Under the pieces are notes generated by a model. The model was not told the origin of the DNA and did no database searches. It saw only the letters and a program-made list of their open reading frames with translations. This document shows positions 53,537-59,672 of a stretch of 64,000 bases of DNA, piece after piece (position 1 is the stretch's first letter; each line of letters opens with the position of its first letter). Location of the stretch: positions 1-64,000 of the forward strand of contig CAMCUD010000010.1 of the NCBI GenBank assembly GCA_945878865.1. Direction: 5' to 3'. Position numbers and translations under genes: made by a program. Origin of the DNA: Bifidobacterium breve (GTDB lineage Bacteria; Actinomycetota; Thermoleophilia; Solirubrobacterales; Solirubrobacteraceae).

Positions 53537-55942
53537 TCAGGCGGGCCGCGCGGTGACGACGATGTTGTCGCGGTAGTGGCCCGTCTGCTCGTTGAACGGA
53601 CCGCCGCAGGTGACCAGCACGAGCCGGCGCTCGCCGGTGCGGGTGAAGATCCCGGTTGGCAGGTCGGCCTTGCGGGTGCGGCGCATGCCCGTGACCTTCC
53701 AGCGGCGCGTCTTGCCGTCGTCCGAGCTCAGCAGCACGGTGTCGCCGCGCCGGGCGCTCTTCAGGGCGTAGAACGCGCCCGCGCCCGCCTTCGCGCTGTC
53801 GACGTGGCCGGCGAGCAGGATGGTCCCTTCGTCGTCGCCGGGGGAGGCGCCGTCACGCCACCAGCCGACGCGGTCGATGTTCTTCGGGATGCCGAGGGCG
53901 CCGGTGGCGAGGTCGATGTCGGCGCTGGCGATCGGCGCCCGGATGCCCAGACGTGTGAGCTCGACCCGGGTCGGGACCGGCCGGTCGCCGTCAGCGGCGG
54001 CCCGCGCCGAGCCGGTGGGCCGGACCTGCACGTCGCCGCGGCCCGTGAGGATGAGCGGCGCGGCGAGGGAGGTCTCGGCCTCGACCCCGCAGCGCTCCTC
54101 GGTCGCGGCAACGAGGTCGCTGCCGACGATCGACTCCACGTAGGTGTAGAACCCGGCGCGCTTGACCTGGGTCTTCGGCGAGCGCACCTCGCCGTCGCCC
54201 TTGACGTCGACCGTGCCCTTCCAGGTCGGGGCGCCCTTGCACGTCATGTCCGCGCGTGTCGCGTACGGCCCGTACAGCTTCACCTCGACGGTCGCGGGAG
54301 TCGCGCCCAACCCGCTGACCTTGATGCGGTCGTAGAGCTCGGCGCCGGGCTTGACGACGGCGTCGGAGGCGATCGTCGTGACCTTCGGCGCGGCTCTGGC
54401 GAACGTCGTCTCGCTCGCCTCGCCGCAGGCCGTCTGCACGCCGCCGAACGCGGGTGACTCGGCGATCGACTCGCGGTACGTGTAGTAGCCGGCGGACGGG
54501 ATCGTCACCGGCTCGGTCGTGTACGAGCCGTCGCCGTTCGCGGTGAACGTGCCCTTCCATGCGGGCTCGCCCTGGCACGTCATCGCGTCGCGCGAGGCGT
54601 ACGGCCCCCAGAGCTCGACGTTCACCGTCGCGGTGAGCACGCCCAGGCCCGAGACGACGGCCGTATCGGTGATCTTCGCGCCCGGCGCCGTCTCAGCCGC
54701 GCTGATCTGGGTGGTGATCGCCGGCGTCCCGCGGACGACGGTCGTCTCCGCAGCCTCGCCGCAGGCGGTCTTCGCCGCGGCGACGCGATCGGTCTGGTCG
54801 ATCCACTCGACGTAGGTGTAGTACCCCGGGGTCTGCAGCGTGACCGGGTCGGTCGTGTACGTCCCGTCGCCGTCGGCGGTGAACGAGCCCTGCCACACGG
54901 GCGTCGCGTCACACTTCAGCTGGTCGGCCGCCGAGGCGGGCCCGTAGAGCGCGGCGTTCACGGTGACGCGCTGACCGGCCAGGCCCGAGACCTGGACGCT
55001 GTCGGTGATCTGCGCGCCGGGCACGGTCGTCTGCTGGCTGATCTGCGTGACGACCTTCGGCGTCACCCGGACGGGCGCCTCGACCGCGTCACTGACCGTG
55101 GCGGTGGCGCGGCCGGCGAGCCGCTGACCGCTGCGCGCCGCCTCGCCGCGGGTCGGGACGTAGAGCGCGGGCAGCTGCGCGGCCACCTCGGCCTTCGCGG
55201 TGACCTTCAGGCCGTCGGCGGTGGTGGGAGTGAGCGGGACCTTCGCGATCCCCTTCGCGTCGGTGCGCGCCTTCGCGTCCAGGCCGTCGGCGCCCTGGCC
55301 GTCGAGCGCCACCGGCACGTCGGAGAGCGCCGCGCCGGAGCTCGACGTCACCTTCACCGTCAGCGTGGTCTGCTGGCCGACCGTGAGGTCGGCGGGAAGC
55401 GAGGCCTCGACCGTGGAGGGCCCGGCCAGGCGCTCGGCCGCGCGGGCGATCGCCTTGTAGCGCCGCTCCACCGCCGGACCGATCGCATCGGGGGCGGCCT
55501 CGCCCGGCTCGGCGTCGCCCATGAGCCCGTGGACGTAGAGCATCATCGCGCCCTGCTGCGCACGGTCGCTCGACCGGCCGAAGCGCCACAGGGCGAACGC
55601 CATGCGGCGCAGCTTGTCCGCCGAGACGGCGTCACCGTCGCGGTTCTTCAGGCCGGCGGCCGAGCGGCGCTCGTAGCCGAAGCGCTTCGCCGGGTACCAG
55701 AACCGCAGATCCACGCAGAACAGCGGGTCGTCGACGCCCGCCACCGCGCCGCGGTAGTCGCCGAACCAGCGGATGCCATAGCGGTAGGTGCGGTACGCGC
55801 CGACCCCGGTGGTGTCGCACGTGTTGCGGCCCGCGCGCGAGCACGGGTCGTTCTGGTTCGGCGGTTCGGCGGCGGCCGCGACGGCCGGAGCCACGCACGC
55901 GGCGACGAGGAAGATGAGCGAGACGGACAGGAAACGAGACAC
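53537..55942 (-). CDS. Class F-like sortase fused to adhesin-like repeats
   Basis: The 801-residue protein has a signal peptide (RFLSVSLIFLVAACVAPAVA), an N-terminal domain (30-170) with CSRAG, CDTTG and FCVDLRFWYP that resembles actinobacterial thioester adhesin domains, an Ig-like domain (170-290), three repeats of about 100 residues (each with LYGP or LWGP, a Cys, W-x-G-T/S-F/V, and YYTY or FYTY), and a C-terminal class F-like sortase domain (about 660-801) with His713, Cys779 (VTCGG) and Arg791. Sortases attach proteins to the wall. Here enzyme and surface domains are one chain. No LPXTG signal or C-terminal membrane helix is seen. Confidence 0.8.
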   Translation of the reverse strand: MSRFLSVSLIFLVAACVAPAVAAAAEPPNQNDPCSRAGRNTCDTTGVGAYRTYRYGIRWFGDYRGAVAGVDDPLFCVDLRFWYPAKRFGYERRSAAGLKNRDGDAVSADKLRRMAFALWRFGRSSDRAQQGAMMLYVHGLMGDAEPGEAAPDAIGPAVERRYKAIARAAERLAGPSTVEASLPADLTVGQQTTLTVKVTSSSGAALSDVPVALDGQGADGLDAKARTDAKGIAKVPLTPTTADGLKVTAKAEVAAQLPALYVPTRGEAARSGQRLAGRATATVSDAVEAPVRVTPKVVTQISQQTTVPGAQITDSVQVSGLAGQRVTVNAALYGPASAADQLKCDATPVWQGSFTADGDGTYTTDPVTLQTPGYYTYVEWIDQTDRVAAAKTACGEAAETTVVRGTPAITTQISAAETAPGAKITDTAVVSGLGVLTATVNVELWGPYASRDAMTCQGEPAWKGTFTANGDGSYTTEPVTIPSAGYYTYRESIAESPAFGGVQTACGEASETTFARAAPKVTTIASDAVVKPGAELYDRIKVSGLGATPATVEVKLYGPYATRADMTCKGAPTWKGTVDVKGDGEVRSPKTQVKRAGFYTYVESIVGSDLVAATEERCGVEAETSLAAPLILTGRGDVQVRPTGSARAAADGDRPVPTRVELTRLGIRAPIASADIDLATGALGIPKNIDRVGWWRDGASPGDDEGTILLAGHVDSAKAGAGAFYALKSARRGDTVLLSSDDGKTRRWKVTGMRRTRKADLPTGIFTRTGERRLVLVTCGGPFNEQTGHYRDNIVVTARPA

Positions 55943-55987: not shown

Positions 55988-56620
55988 TCAGCCGCCCGGC
56001 TCGAGTACCCGCCAGACGACCTCCGTGAGCGCCCCCACGGCGCGGTCGTCCGCGTCCGCGTCGGCCTCCGGGCCGGGAAGCATCTTGTGGCAGACGCGCT
56101 CGACCATCCAGGCGAGCGCCTCGGCGACCGTGTCGGGGTCGGCGTGCTCGGACTCCCGGCCGGCCCAGCGCATCCGGAGGTGGTCGGCGACGGTCGCGGC
56201 CATCCCGCCGATCGTCGCCTGCCAGGCGTCCTGCGCTGCGTCGTCGTACTCGGCCAGCTCGATGATCGCCGCGCCGACCATCGCGTGCTCGTGCCAGTTG
56301 GCCACGAGCTGGCGCATCACCCGCTCGACGTCGGCGCGGCCCGATGCCGGGTCGGCGAGCACCGGCTCGGCGAGCGCCATCCACGGCTCGGAGTCCTCCG
56401 CCGCGAGCCGCGCGATGAGCTCGGTCTTGTCCGGGAAGTGGGCGTAGAACGTCGACCGCGAGACGCCAGCGGCCTCGCAGATGCGGTCGACGCTCATCGC
56501 GGCGACCGGCGACCCGGTCTCCAGGAGGGCCCGGAACGCCGCGAGGATGCGCTCCTGCGTCGCCTCGCGGCGGCGGCGGCCCGCCTGGGCCTGGACGGTG
56601 AAGGCCCGCGCCGTCGTCAC
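55988..56620 (-). CDS. TetR-family regulator coupled to the second P450
   Basis: The 210-residue protein has a TetR DNA-binding domain (about residues 18-65: ERILAAFRALLETG ... VDRICEAAGVSRSTFYAHFPDKTEL) and a helical ligand domain. The GTG overlaps the P450 stop as GTGA. The palindrome at 57905-57921 in the P450 promoter is its likely operator. The inducer is unknown. Confidence 0.9.
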   Translation of the reverse strand: MTTARAFTVQAQAGRRRREATQERILAAFRALLETGSPVAAMSVDRICEAAGVSRSTFYAHFPDKTELIARLAAEDSEPWMALAEPVLADPASGRADVERVMRQLVANWHEHAMVGAAIIELAEYDDAAQDAWQATIGGMAATVADHLRMRWAGRESEHADPDTVAEALAWMVERVCHKMLPGPEADADADDRAVGALTEVVWRVLEPGG

Positions 56621-57861
56621 GCCGGCTGCGGCGTGAAGCGGACCGGGAACTCCTTGAGCTGGTTGACGAAGCAGGACTTCGTATACCGCGGCTCCCCGTT
56701 GAGCTGCATGTCCGGGAACCGGCGCAGCGTCTCCTCGAACAGGATCTTCAGCTCCATGCGCGCGAGCGCCGCGCCGAGGCAGAAGTGGCGGCCTCCGCCG
56801 CCGAACGCCTGGTGCTTCGGGCTGAGATCGCGATGGATGTCGAACACGTCGGCGTCGGGGAAGACGGTGTCGTCGCGGTTGCTCGCCACGTACCACATGA
56901 GCAGCTTGTCGCCCTCGCGGATCGTCTGGCCGTGGAGCTCGACGTCGCGCTGGGCCGTGCGCCGGAAGTGCGCGAACGCCGGGAAGCACCGCAGGCACTC
57001 CTCGACGGCGTTCGGGATGAGCGACGGGTCGGCGACGAGCTGGCTGCGGGACTCCTCGTCCCGGAGCAGCTGGAGCATGCCCGAGGCGAACGTCGACCGG
57101 GTCGAGTCGTTGCCCGCGGCGCCGAGCAGGCCGATCCCCATGAAGATCTCGAAGTCCTGCAGGCGCTCACCGTCGACGACCGCGTGCGCGAGAACGCTGA
57201 TGAGGTCGTCCTGCGGGTCGGCGCGCCGCTCCTCGAGGACCTCCATGAACTCCTGGATGGATTCCTGGATCATCGCCGCGTTCTCCTCGAACCCGGACGA
57301 GACCTCCTCGTCGCTGAAGGCGAGGATCATGTTCGCGCGCTCGGCGTTCTTCTTGTCGTCCTCCTCCTCGCTGCCGATGAAGGAGCCGATCACGCGCGAG
57401 ACGACCGGCTGCGCGATGTCGTCGACGAGGTCACACTCGCCCAGCGGAGCGACGCGGTCGAGCACGCGGGTGACGATCTCGCGGATGCGCTCCTCGTGCT
57501 GGGCGATGCGCGCGGGGGTGAACCCGCGCTGGAACAGCGCCTTGAGCCGGTCGTGACGCGGCGGGTCCATCGAGATCATCTGCTGCTGCTGGGCCTCGAG
57601 CGGCAGCCCGATGTCGTTGAGCATGAGCACGCCACCGCGCTCGGAGCTGAACGTCTGGAAGTCCTTCGTGATCGCGTCGACGTCGGCCCAGCGCGTGATG
57701 GACCAGAAGCCCGCCTCGTCGGGGTACTGGTTCAGCGGACTCCAGTGCACCGGCGCTTCGGCGCGCAGGCGGGTAAACAGCCAGTGCGGCGGCCCGTCCT
57801 GCCACAGCGACAGATCGCTGACGTCGATCGACTGAAGATCCTGCTCGATGGCCAGACCCAT
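56617..57861 (-). CDS. Cytochrome P450 (second)
   Basis: The 414-residue protein has the I-helix motif AGNDS (249-253), ExxR at 288-291 (ECLR) and the haem loop FGGGGRHFCLG with Cys361. AGNDS-type I helices are common in actinobacterial P450s that hydroxylate sterols and other lipids (CYP125/CYP142-like style), but a substrate cannot be assigned. A strong site GGAGGAGG stands four bases before the ATG. It forms a two-gene operon with TetR. Confidence 0.94.
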   Translation of the reverse strand: MGLAIEQDLQSIDVSDLSLWQDGPPHWLFTRLRAEAPVHWSPLNQYPDEAGFWSITRWADVDAITKDFQTFSSERGGVLMLNDIGLPLEAQQQQMISMDPPRHDRLKALFQRGFTPARIAQHEERIREIVTRVLDRVAPLGECDLVDDIAQPVVSRVIGSFIGSEEEDDKKNAERANMILAFSDEEVSSGFEENAAMIQESIQEFMEVLEERRADPQDDLISVLAHAVVDGERLQDFEIFMGIGLLGAAGNDSTRSTFASGMLQLLRDEESRSQLVADPSLIPNAVEECLRCFPAFAHFRRTAQRDVELHGQTIREGDKLLMWYVASNRDDTVFPDADVFDIHRDLSPKHQAFGGGGRHFCLGAALARMELKILFEETLRRFPDMQLNGEPRYTKSCFVNQLKEFPVRFTPQPA

Positions 57862-57904
57862 GCGTCCTCCTCCAAGAACGTCCGAAGCACTCGCGCGGTG
57901 AACC

Positions 57905-57941: not shown

Positions 57942-58214
57942 TCAGCCGGCCACGCACGTGGCGAGCAGGCCGGCGGTCAGGTAGGTCGAGCAGCTCGTGA
58001 GCGGCTGCACCGCGGCCGCATCGCTGAGCGCGTGGCCCAGCGCGTCGTACGGATCACCCTGCACGCTCTGGATCGGCGCGCCGAGCACCTGGCCGTTGAG
58101 CTGGGAGATCGACTGCCCGACGTTCGGGTTGGGCAGGGTCAGGTACGCCGCCTGCGCCGGGGCCGCGCCGGCGAGGACGAGGACCATGGCTAGCAGCGCG
58201 ATGCGCGCGGTCAT
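57942..58214 (-). CDS. Small secreted RebB-like protein, divergent copy
   Basis: The 90-residue protein has a signal peptide (RIALLAMVLVLAGAAPAQA) and a core NPNVGQSISQLNGQVLG that parallels the NPQITDAVTQANVKVLG core of the gene upstream. Both proteins end in nearly the same segment, YLTAGLLATC here and YLTAALLVTC there. It therefore looks like a shortened paralogue of a RebB-like protein. The ATG overlaps the upstream stop as ATGA, so the two are made together. Function is inferred only from this similarity. Confidence 0.65.
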   Translation of the reverse strand: MTARIALLAMVLVLAGAAPAQAAYLTLPNPNVGQSISQLNGQVLGAPIQSVQGDPYDALGHALSDAAAVQPLTSCSTYLTAGLLATCVAG

Positions 58215-58651
58215 CCCGCGGCCTCCGCCGCGCACGTGACGAGGAGCGCGGCGGTGAGGTACGGCGCGCACCGGTCACGGAAGACCGCGGTGACCGCGGA
58301 TGGCGTCGACGCCGTGTCGACGCTGTAGAGCAGCGCGACGGACTGGGTGGTCGACGCCTGCTGGTCGATGTTGGTGTCCTGGCCGGCGCTGGAGGCGTTG
58401 GCGATCGCCAACGCCCCGGCCGTCGTCGCGAAGATCTGGCCCATCGCCATGCCCGGGGCGTCGCCCAGCACCTTGACGTTCGCCTGGGTGACCGCATCGG
58501 TGATCTGCGGGTTGACCGTCGTCAGCGGCGTGTCCTGGGCCGGCGCCAAGGTGATCTGGCTGTTCACGGCGGTCGGCCAGGCGGCGTGCGCGTCGGCGGC
58601 GCAGATCAGCAGGAGCGTGCAGGCCATCGCAGCGAGGCGGGCGGCGGTCAT
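58211..58651 (-). CDS. Secreted RebB (R-body structural protein) homologue
   Basis: The 146-residue protein has a signal peptide (AARLAAMACTLLLICAADAHA) and then PTAVNSQIT ... NPQITDAVTQANVKVLGDAP, GMAMGQIFATTAGALAIANAS and STTQSVALLYSVDTASTPSAV. These blocks are the RebB ('killing trait') family signature: DAVTQ-x-NVKVLG-x-AP-x-MAMG and TT-x(4)-LYS-x-DTA. RebB builds R-bodies, protein ribbons that unroll and can burst cells. Known Reb proteins lack signal peptides, so export is unexpected. An extra VNSQIT-like block before the core is a partial duplication. The C-terminal Cys pair is added. Confidence 0.75.
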   Translation of the reverse strand: MTAARLAAMACTLLLICAADAHAAWPTAVNSQITLAPAQDTPLTTVNPQITDAVTQANVKVLGDAPGMAMGQIFATTAGALAIANASSAGQDTNIDQQASTTQSVALLYSVDTASTPSAVTAVFRDRCAPYLTAALLVTCAAEAAG

Positions 58652-58709
58652 GCGATGCACGTCGGCGTGTCGGGTCCGCCGCTGAAGCACAGACGCCGCG
58701 ACCTCGACG

Positions 58710-59672
58710 TCAAGACAGGTGCTTGACGATCTCGCAGTTGCGGATCGTGGAGTGGCCGGGGCGGTAGTAGACGGTGTCGCGGCCCGGCCCGCAGTCGATG
58801 ACGTCACGGCCGGTCCACGAGGAGCGGATGACGTCGTTGCCGGCCCCGCCGTCCATCCGGTCGTCGCCGTAGCCGCCCTTCAGCTCGTCGTCTCCGTCTC
58901 CGCCGCGCAGCACGTCGTTGCCGCGATCGCCGGTCATCTCGTCGTCGCCGGAACCGCCCTCGATCACGTCGTCGCCCTTGCGACCGGACAGGACGTCGTC
59001 GCCCGTGCCGCCGTCGAGGCGGTCGTCGCCGCCCGCGCCCTCGACCTCGTCGTTGCCGCCGAGCGCCTCGCAGACGTCGTCGCCGTCGGTGCCGTAGACC
59101 CGCTCGGCGTCGTCGCTGGCCTCCTCGTCGCACGGGACGGCCGGGGTGTCCTCGTCCTCCTCGATCGTCTCCTCGCACCCGGTCATGCGCTCGAGGTCCG
59201 ATTCGAGGTTGTAGTAGGCGATGTCGTCGCCCGGCCCGCAGTCGATGGTGTCGGGGCCGGTGCCGCCCTTGATGATGTCGTCGCCCGCGCCGCCGAAGAT
59301 GGTGTCGACCCCGCGATTGCCGTCGATGACGTCGTCGCCGGCGCCACCCCGCAGGACGTCGTCGCCGTAGCGCGATTCGATGATGCGGTCGTCACCCGGC
59401 CCGCCGTCGACGTGGTCGTTGCCGTCCCCGCCGTCGATGGTGTCGCGGCCGGTTCCGCCGAGGATGCGGTCGTTGCCGTCACCGCCGCGCAGGATGTCGT
59501 CGCCGCCGAACCCGAGGATGCGGTCGTTGCCGCCCAGGCCGAGCAGGCGGTCCGCGCCGCCGGAGCCCGCCATGCGGTCGACGCCCGCGCTGCCCGCACG
59601 GGCGAGGGCGACGCCGGCCGGCCCGAGCAGGGCGGCGACGGCCAGGAGGGTGAGAAGCGAGCGGCGGAGCAT
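58710..59672 (-). CDS. Secreted RTX-type calcium-binding repeat protein
   Basis: The 320-residue protein has a signal peptide (RRSLLTLLAVAALLGPAGVALA) and two blocks of GGxGxD nonapeptides (residues about 35-150 and 200-300), separated by an acidic Cys-containing stretch (CEETIEEDEDTPAVPC). Such repeats fold into a parallel beta roll when Ca2+ binds. It has no enzymatic domain and is exported by Sec rather than type I secretion. The two RebB-like genes follow 58 bases downstream in the same direction, possibly as one operon. Confidence 0.9.
   Translation of the reverse strand: MLRRSLLTLLAVAALLGPAGVALARAGSAGVDRMAGSGGADRLLGLGGNDRILGFGGDDILRGGDGNDRILGGTGRDTIDGGDGNDHVDGGPGDDRIIESRYGDDVLRGGAGDDVIDGNRGVDTIFGGAGDDIIKGGTGPDTIDCGPGDDIAYYNLESDLERMTGCEETIEEDEDTPAVPCDEEASDDAERVYGTDGDDVCEALGGNDEVEGAGGDDRLDGGTGDDVLSGRKGDDVIEGGSGDDEMTGDRGNDVLRGGDGDDELKGGYGDDRMDGGAGNDVIRSSWTGRDVIDCGPGRDTVYYRPGHSTIRNCEIVKHLS

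Follow-up and report, generated by a model that had tools for sequence, protein, structure and literature searches.

A single-gene, cysteine-bearing RebB-family protein predicted to be exported in a putatively actinobacterial genus

R-bodies are described as intracellular machines made of several paralogous Reb proteins, which form spring-like ribbons. Those characterized experimentally contain two or more Rebs, namely RebA and RebB in Caedibacter and RebP1 and RebP2 in Pseudomonas aeruginosa PA14 (PMC8322103, PMC3583457). The 2026 survey of the family describes QITD and KXXXD/E motifs and a QQ(Q) signature of domain 3, which is not absolute in Rebs, and uses the rarity of cysteine as an argument against disulfide linkage in R-bodies (PMC13430693).

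The window analyzed here, i.e., the whole stretch of 64,000 nucleotides, comes from a host whose GC content (about 72%) and gene content are consistent with an actinobacterium. It carries, on the minus strand, a reb gene (P1) and a shorter relative (P2), with orthologues of P1 in two sister genomes of the same genus (G001 and G002). The features considered are as follows.

58710 to 59672, minus strand: RTX-type calcium-binding repeat protein upstream of P1, 320 aa (PF00353, 179.8 bits)
58211 to 58651, minus strand: P1, predicted exported RebB-family protein, 146 aa, with ATG at 58651 and stop at 58211-58213; signal peptide in residues 1-23, RebB domain in residues of about 50-115, C128-x11-C140 tail
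58583 to 58651, minus strand: P1 signal peptide, MTAARLAAMACTLLLICAADAHA, with predicted cleavage before AWPTAVNSQIT
58232 to 58270, minus strand: C-terminal CX11C tail of P1, CAPYLTAALLVTC, with CX11C and YLTA conserved in P1, P2, and the G001 and G002 orthologues
57942 to 58214, minus strand: P2, predicted exported half-Reb, 90 aa, with ATG at 58214 and the stop ending at 57942; signal peptide, segment resembling Reb helix 1, CX11C tail, second Reb helix missing altogether
56617 to 57867, minus strand: cytochrome P450 (PF00067), the downstream syntenic flank, 89% identical to its neighbor counterpart in G001

The RebB domain of P1 and its half-length neighbor

The Pfam search matched P1 to PF11747 (RebB; cut-off, 24 bits) with 69.3 bits and an E value of 3e-19 over all 68 model positions (1-68), and the two sister orthologues scored 104.6 and 94.4 bits. 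The RebB homology of the original prediction, for which the lack of a profile match had been named beforehand as the refuting outcome, was thus borne out; the positions given there, 58211 and 57942, are the stop ends of P1 and P2. The RebB blocks DAVTQANVKVLGDAPGMAMG and LYSVDTAST are both present in P1, as are the QITD and KXXXD/E motifs in the form of PQITDAV and KVLGD, which occur likewise in both orthologues; all three species retain the whole 68-residue domain with these motifs, the core of G001 being close to canonical. As for the QQQ of domain 3, G001 and G002 have it, whereas the aligned position in P1 reads GQD, with QQ a few residues further on.

Convergence of an Ala/Thr-rich sequence, the other way in which the homology might have failed, is excluded by matches of 69 to 105 bits and by the 78-79% identity of the G001 orthologue to Rebs of Xanthomonas and Hydrogenophaga, and the profile scores together with shuffles rule out low complexity as the source of the Reb likeness. 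NCBIfam matches of RibD and a thioesterase were far below the cut-off and were taken as chance. No Reb relative was found by sequence among the solved structures of the PDB, and the AlphaFold models are helical and of low confidence (pLDDT of about 65, pTM of 0.27-0.28), so that they are uninformative on assembly. In P1, an inserted N-terminal partial repeat (58487-58582; AWPTAVNSQIT-LAPAQDTPL-TTVNPQITDAV) duplicates the mature N terminus and has no counterpart in the orthologues.

The stop of P1 and the start of P2 overlap as ATGA, so that the two genes are probably translationally coupled. No PF11747 match was returned for P2 by the Pfam search even at an E value of 1. The mature part of P2 scored 27.2 bits against a profile of the three orthologues and 17.6 bits against a canonical Reb profile, the best of about 1000 shuffles reaching 11.2 and 13.6 bits, respectively; since its support consists of profile scores over shuffles, we call P2 Reb-derived and not a RebB member. 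It occurs in this species only, of the three, and is absent from both sister loci. In keeping with the earlier description of P2 as a coupled neighbor with a shortened core, P2 has the core of helix 1 and the CX11C tail in common with P1, and it may be read as a duplicated, shortened, and divergent exported Reb.

Predicted export and the paired cysteines

Signal peptides and cleavage sites were predicted from the sequence, according to the presence of Arg, a hydrophobic stretch, and the AxA rule, and from hydrophobicity. As had been claimed, both P1 and P2 show classical signal peptides with these three elements, and that of P1 is conserved, with a Sec-type signal peptide on 3/3 orthologues of the genus. 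With cleavage by the AxA rule, the N termini divide into MTAARLAAMACTLLLICAADAHA and AWPTAVNSQIT in P1, MPAFRAVLLAAAFALVAATPAGA and AYPTAVNSQITD in G001, and MRVLRLAMLAGLVTLAVSAPAAA and QTVNSQITD in G002, while canonical Rebs begin with MAFPTAVNSQITD. In particular, the predicted cleavage in G001, the most canonical orthologue, leaves AYPTAVNSQITD..., almost exactly the canonical N terminus (M)AFPTAVNSQITD..., and the form A[FYW]PTAVNSQIT of the mature N terminus is shared with the Rebs of Xanthomonas, Stenotrophomonas, Roseateles, and Hydrogenophaga. Other Pseudomonadota Reb groups also start with MAIPTPVN or MADNTPVN. A wrong start codon as the cause of the apparent signal peptide was ruled out, because P1 and both orthologues lack an in-frame start codon where canonical Rebs have theirs, and the signal peptide is where translation must start.

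Among the matches listed (80 loci), none of 244 canonical Reb open reading frames has a signal peptide. Secreted Rebs were likewise absent among the loci examined from 349 genomes of the Xanthomonas phylum, from 164 genomes of the phylum to which a Verrucomicrobiales MAG belongs, and from 161 genomes of that of a cyanobacterial MAG. One candidate, locus L043, was discarded: a tblastn alignment starting at residue 2 had been misleading, and the Rebs of L043 start with MAFPT.

The C-terminal tail is a second distinctive feature. The original prediction had noticed matching Cys-containing ends in P1 and P2, which are indeed shared; their form, given there as YLTA-x-LL-x-TC, is better described as C-x-x-YLTA-x-(L/M)-x-x-x-C, i.e., CX11C, in P1, P2, G001, and G002. 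Canonical Rebs lack this tail, and a cysteine is found in only 3 of their 244 open reading frames (80 loci, among the matches listed). A conserved cysteine pair on an exported Reb fits an oxidizing compartment, where it may form disulfides; as a 12-residue spacing cannot close in one continuous helix, the tail would have to bend or the bonds would have to form between subunits. Taken together, the RebB homology, the signal peptides in three species, and the Cys-containing tails strongly support the export of the P1 orthologues, which almost certainly work outside the cell membrane, presumably after cleavage of the signal peptide. The location proposed at first is retained as far as export is concerned.

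A related arrangement was found in a different family of this class, in a short protein and two proteins with pentapeptide repeats; two of these three are partial matches from the class genomes, and the remaining one was found by profile. Here, a signal peptide directly precedes, as in P1, a segment of some 25-30 residues that resembles Reb helix 1; different from P1, the likeness is confined to these residues, without the second helix and without CX11C. All three profile scores exceeded those of their own shuffles, while in a whole-protein Pfam scan two of the proteins reached 23.5 and 23.7 bits, under the cut-off of 24. The comparison suggests that a Reb helix is exported in a second lineage too. 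The three coding regions are L089:1307-2254 on the plus strand, a minus-strand frame of L117, and a minus-strand open reading frame of L090 ending near 1366 (VNPEITDAVSQANTKTVGEQP; ANPQVTDGVTQANVNAV; SINAEVLGDAPAIAVGNVFVATS).

Locus, distribution, and origin

The order on the minus strand is the RTX protein (59672-58710), P1 (58651-58211), P2 (58214-57942), the cytochrome P450, a TetR regulator, and a protein with Ig-like and sortase domains. The RTX protein has a signal-peptide-like start and several cysteines, and the distance from its stop to the reb start is exactly 58 nucleotides, in the same order, in the P1 genome, G001, and G002; by synteny, a role of the RTX protein as a co-secreted partner of the Reb is plausible. 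The gap is identical at 29 of 58 positions across the three species, a value equaled in none of 20000 shuffles, which ignore relatedness. Within it (58652-58709), the blocks CGTCGAG and GCCGACGT are shared just upstream of the ATG and possibly represent a promoter or translation element. The cytochrome P450, looked at for an empty-site comparison, proved to be a paralogue specific to the genus, with no more than 59% identity to sequences from elsewhere, and probably lies outside the Reb function. Among the neighbors examined, none was recognizable as a known partner or regulator of reb.

Further downstream, the 801-aa protein at 53537-55942 (minus strand) carries on a single chain both an Ig-like (Big_1) region and, at the C terminus, a sortase domain, and a homologue lies in a sister genome at L004:12348-14747, downstream of reb, P450, and TetR. 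It is unusual for a sortase domain to be joined to an ectodomain of its own.

Within the sampled genomes, on which the distribution rests, RebB occurs in 3/3 genomes of the genus, with one PF11747 match each at the same site between the RTX protein and the P450, whereas no other full-length RebB was found in the 58 other relatives (61 searched), in the other 395 of 396 genomes of the phylum, or in 399 genomes of the class, the last yielding two partial matches only. Contamination was ruled out by the same-site orthologue in a single-contig sister genome of 5.06 Mb and by a GC3-rich codon usage like that of the surroundings (0.96 in P1 and 0.95-0.97 in the reb genes). A phage origin was rejected as well: P1 is matched by a PHROG family without an assigned function, but by none of the phage records, and the IMG/VR scan gave one weak locus.

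Among the matches listed, the G001 core is about 80-87% identical to Rebs of Xanthomonas, Stenotrophomonas, and Roseateles, the highest value being that for Stenotrophomonas (up to 87%), and it shares 83% identity with a Reb encoded on a plasmid of Eleftheria terrae. In the tree, the G001 core nests inside the Pseudomonadota clade of Xanthomonas/Stenotrophomonas/Roseateles-type Rebs, while P1 and G002 form long unresolved branches that do not group with it. These relationships point to a horizontal acquisition of reb, with the signal peptide added afterwards. One acquisition followed by uneven divergence would be the simplest account, because the signal peptide, the tail, and the syntenic site are shared, an argument independent of grouping in the tree; repeated replacement or conversion of reb is a conceivable alternative.

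The dN/dS ratio, calculated with a dS that is uncertain at such divergence and GC3, is 0.49-0.65 for reb, 0.25-0.42 for the RTX gene, and 0.27 for the P450 gene. Being below 1 but above its neighbors, reb appears to be under selection with moderate constraint, evolving faster than RTX and P450. This moderate ratio, together with the divergence of P1 and the half-length P2, could also be expected of a decaying horizontally acquired gene with an accidental signal peptide and a functionless product. We regard such decay as very improbable, since open frames, signal peptide, CX11C, synteny, and the 58-nucleotide spacing are kept in three species and codon usage is GC3 rich throughout.

Possible roles and comparison with R-bodies

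It is possible to hypothesize that an ancestor of the genus gained a single reb of the Xanthomonas/Stenotrophomonas/Roseateles type from Pseudomonadota, that a signal peptide was fused at the site of the canonical start methionine, and that the CX11C tail was added. Sec would carry the product across the membrane, where cleavage would leave an N terminus close to that of canonical Rebs, and the protein could then associate with itself outside the membrane through the conserved Reb helices, as a sheet, a ribbon fragment, or an oligomer, locked by disulfides in the oxidizing exterior. It may be produced along with a secreted matrix that includes the upstream RTX protein, perhaps within this matrix, and in this species P2 may cap or modulate the assembly. 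Self-association is proposed because assembly is the known role of the conserved domain in relatives; polymerization, a surface location, and any weapon role would be inferences. An exported helical assembly at the surface or in a matrix, probably stabilized by disulfides, is the reading that we favor. Taken as a whole, this explanation of an acquired, exported, disulfide-locked, and self-associating Reb could prove right or wrong with about equal probability; one full Reb per genome, moderate constraint, and the lack of the usual QQQ and the N-terminal insertion in P1 speak against it. Its strongest form, in which the R-body fold was domesticated as a disulfide-locked ribbon or surface lattice of one exported subunit, i.e., a Reb polymer outside the cell, is doubtful.

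The same observations leave considerable room for an exported protein that does not polymerize, namely a secreted helical protein of small size, be it an adhesin, a protein of the envelope or of the stress response, or a partner of the RTX protein, for which the Reb fold is only a scaffold. One gene per genome, the loss of QQQ in P1, the fast evolution of reb relative to its neighbors, and the retention of helix 1 only in P2 and in the exported proteins of the other family would agree with it, although a full Reb domain with both motifs in all three species and a nearly canonical core in G001 are less easily reconciled with a mere scaffold. We consider this non-polymeric role a serious possibility, if short of probable.

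The original prediction went further, to possible ribbons and to a surface polymer or contact weapon. Rebs number 4-10 per genome in nine canonical genomes, against one full Reb per genome in the genus (plus P2 here); given also the two or more Rebs of the R-bodies characterized experimentally and the lack of recognized usual partners among the neighbors examined, classical R-bodies are unlikely, and neither ribbon formation nor a weapon found support in this gene content, the weapon having no positive evidence in its favor. A genuine R-body-like ribbon outside the cell, or a contact weapon, extending on stimulus, would draw on the near-canonical mature sequence, above all in G001, but its Sec-exported subunit would need to assemble outside and would do so without the paralogue set and the known partners and regulators; we hold it to be improbable. 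A weapon is less plausible than a role at the surface or in a matrix.

The open surveys consulted (PMC3583457, PMC13430693, PMC8322103) make no mention of signal peptides or of Rebs that are exported, bear cysteines, and stem from a single gene, and orphan exported Rebs would escape the taxonomic figure of 2026, in which a taxon needs at least three reb genes to be counted. Compared with described systems, the Rebs of Xanthomonas, Stenotrophomonas, Roseateles, and Hydrogenophaga (PF11747) have the Reb domain and the QITD and KxxxD/E motifs in common with the genus, and the RebB of Caedibacter taeniospiralis has a homologous domain 49% identical to the G001 core. However, the Xanthomonas-type canonical Rebs lack a signal peptide, are nearly free of cysteine, and occur in genomes with 4-10 paralogues, whereas the genus has a single full Reb, predicted to be exported and bearing CX11C. 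It thus lacks the cluster of several reb genes (three or more in the 2026 survey) typical of R-bodies, and its three orthologues depart from the cysteine-poor Rebs without a signal peptide that characterize them. Furthermore, RebA/RebB of Caedibacter and RebP1/RebP2 of PA14 form intracellular ribbons, while the genus has one full Reb, almost certainly exported (plus the half-Reb here). The family is known, and the exported, cysteine-bearing, single-gene Reb would be a new form of it, in which the fold has moved to another compartment under a signal peptide, and which would offer a minimal one-subunit system for testing Reb self-assembly.
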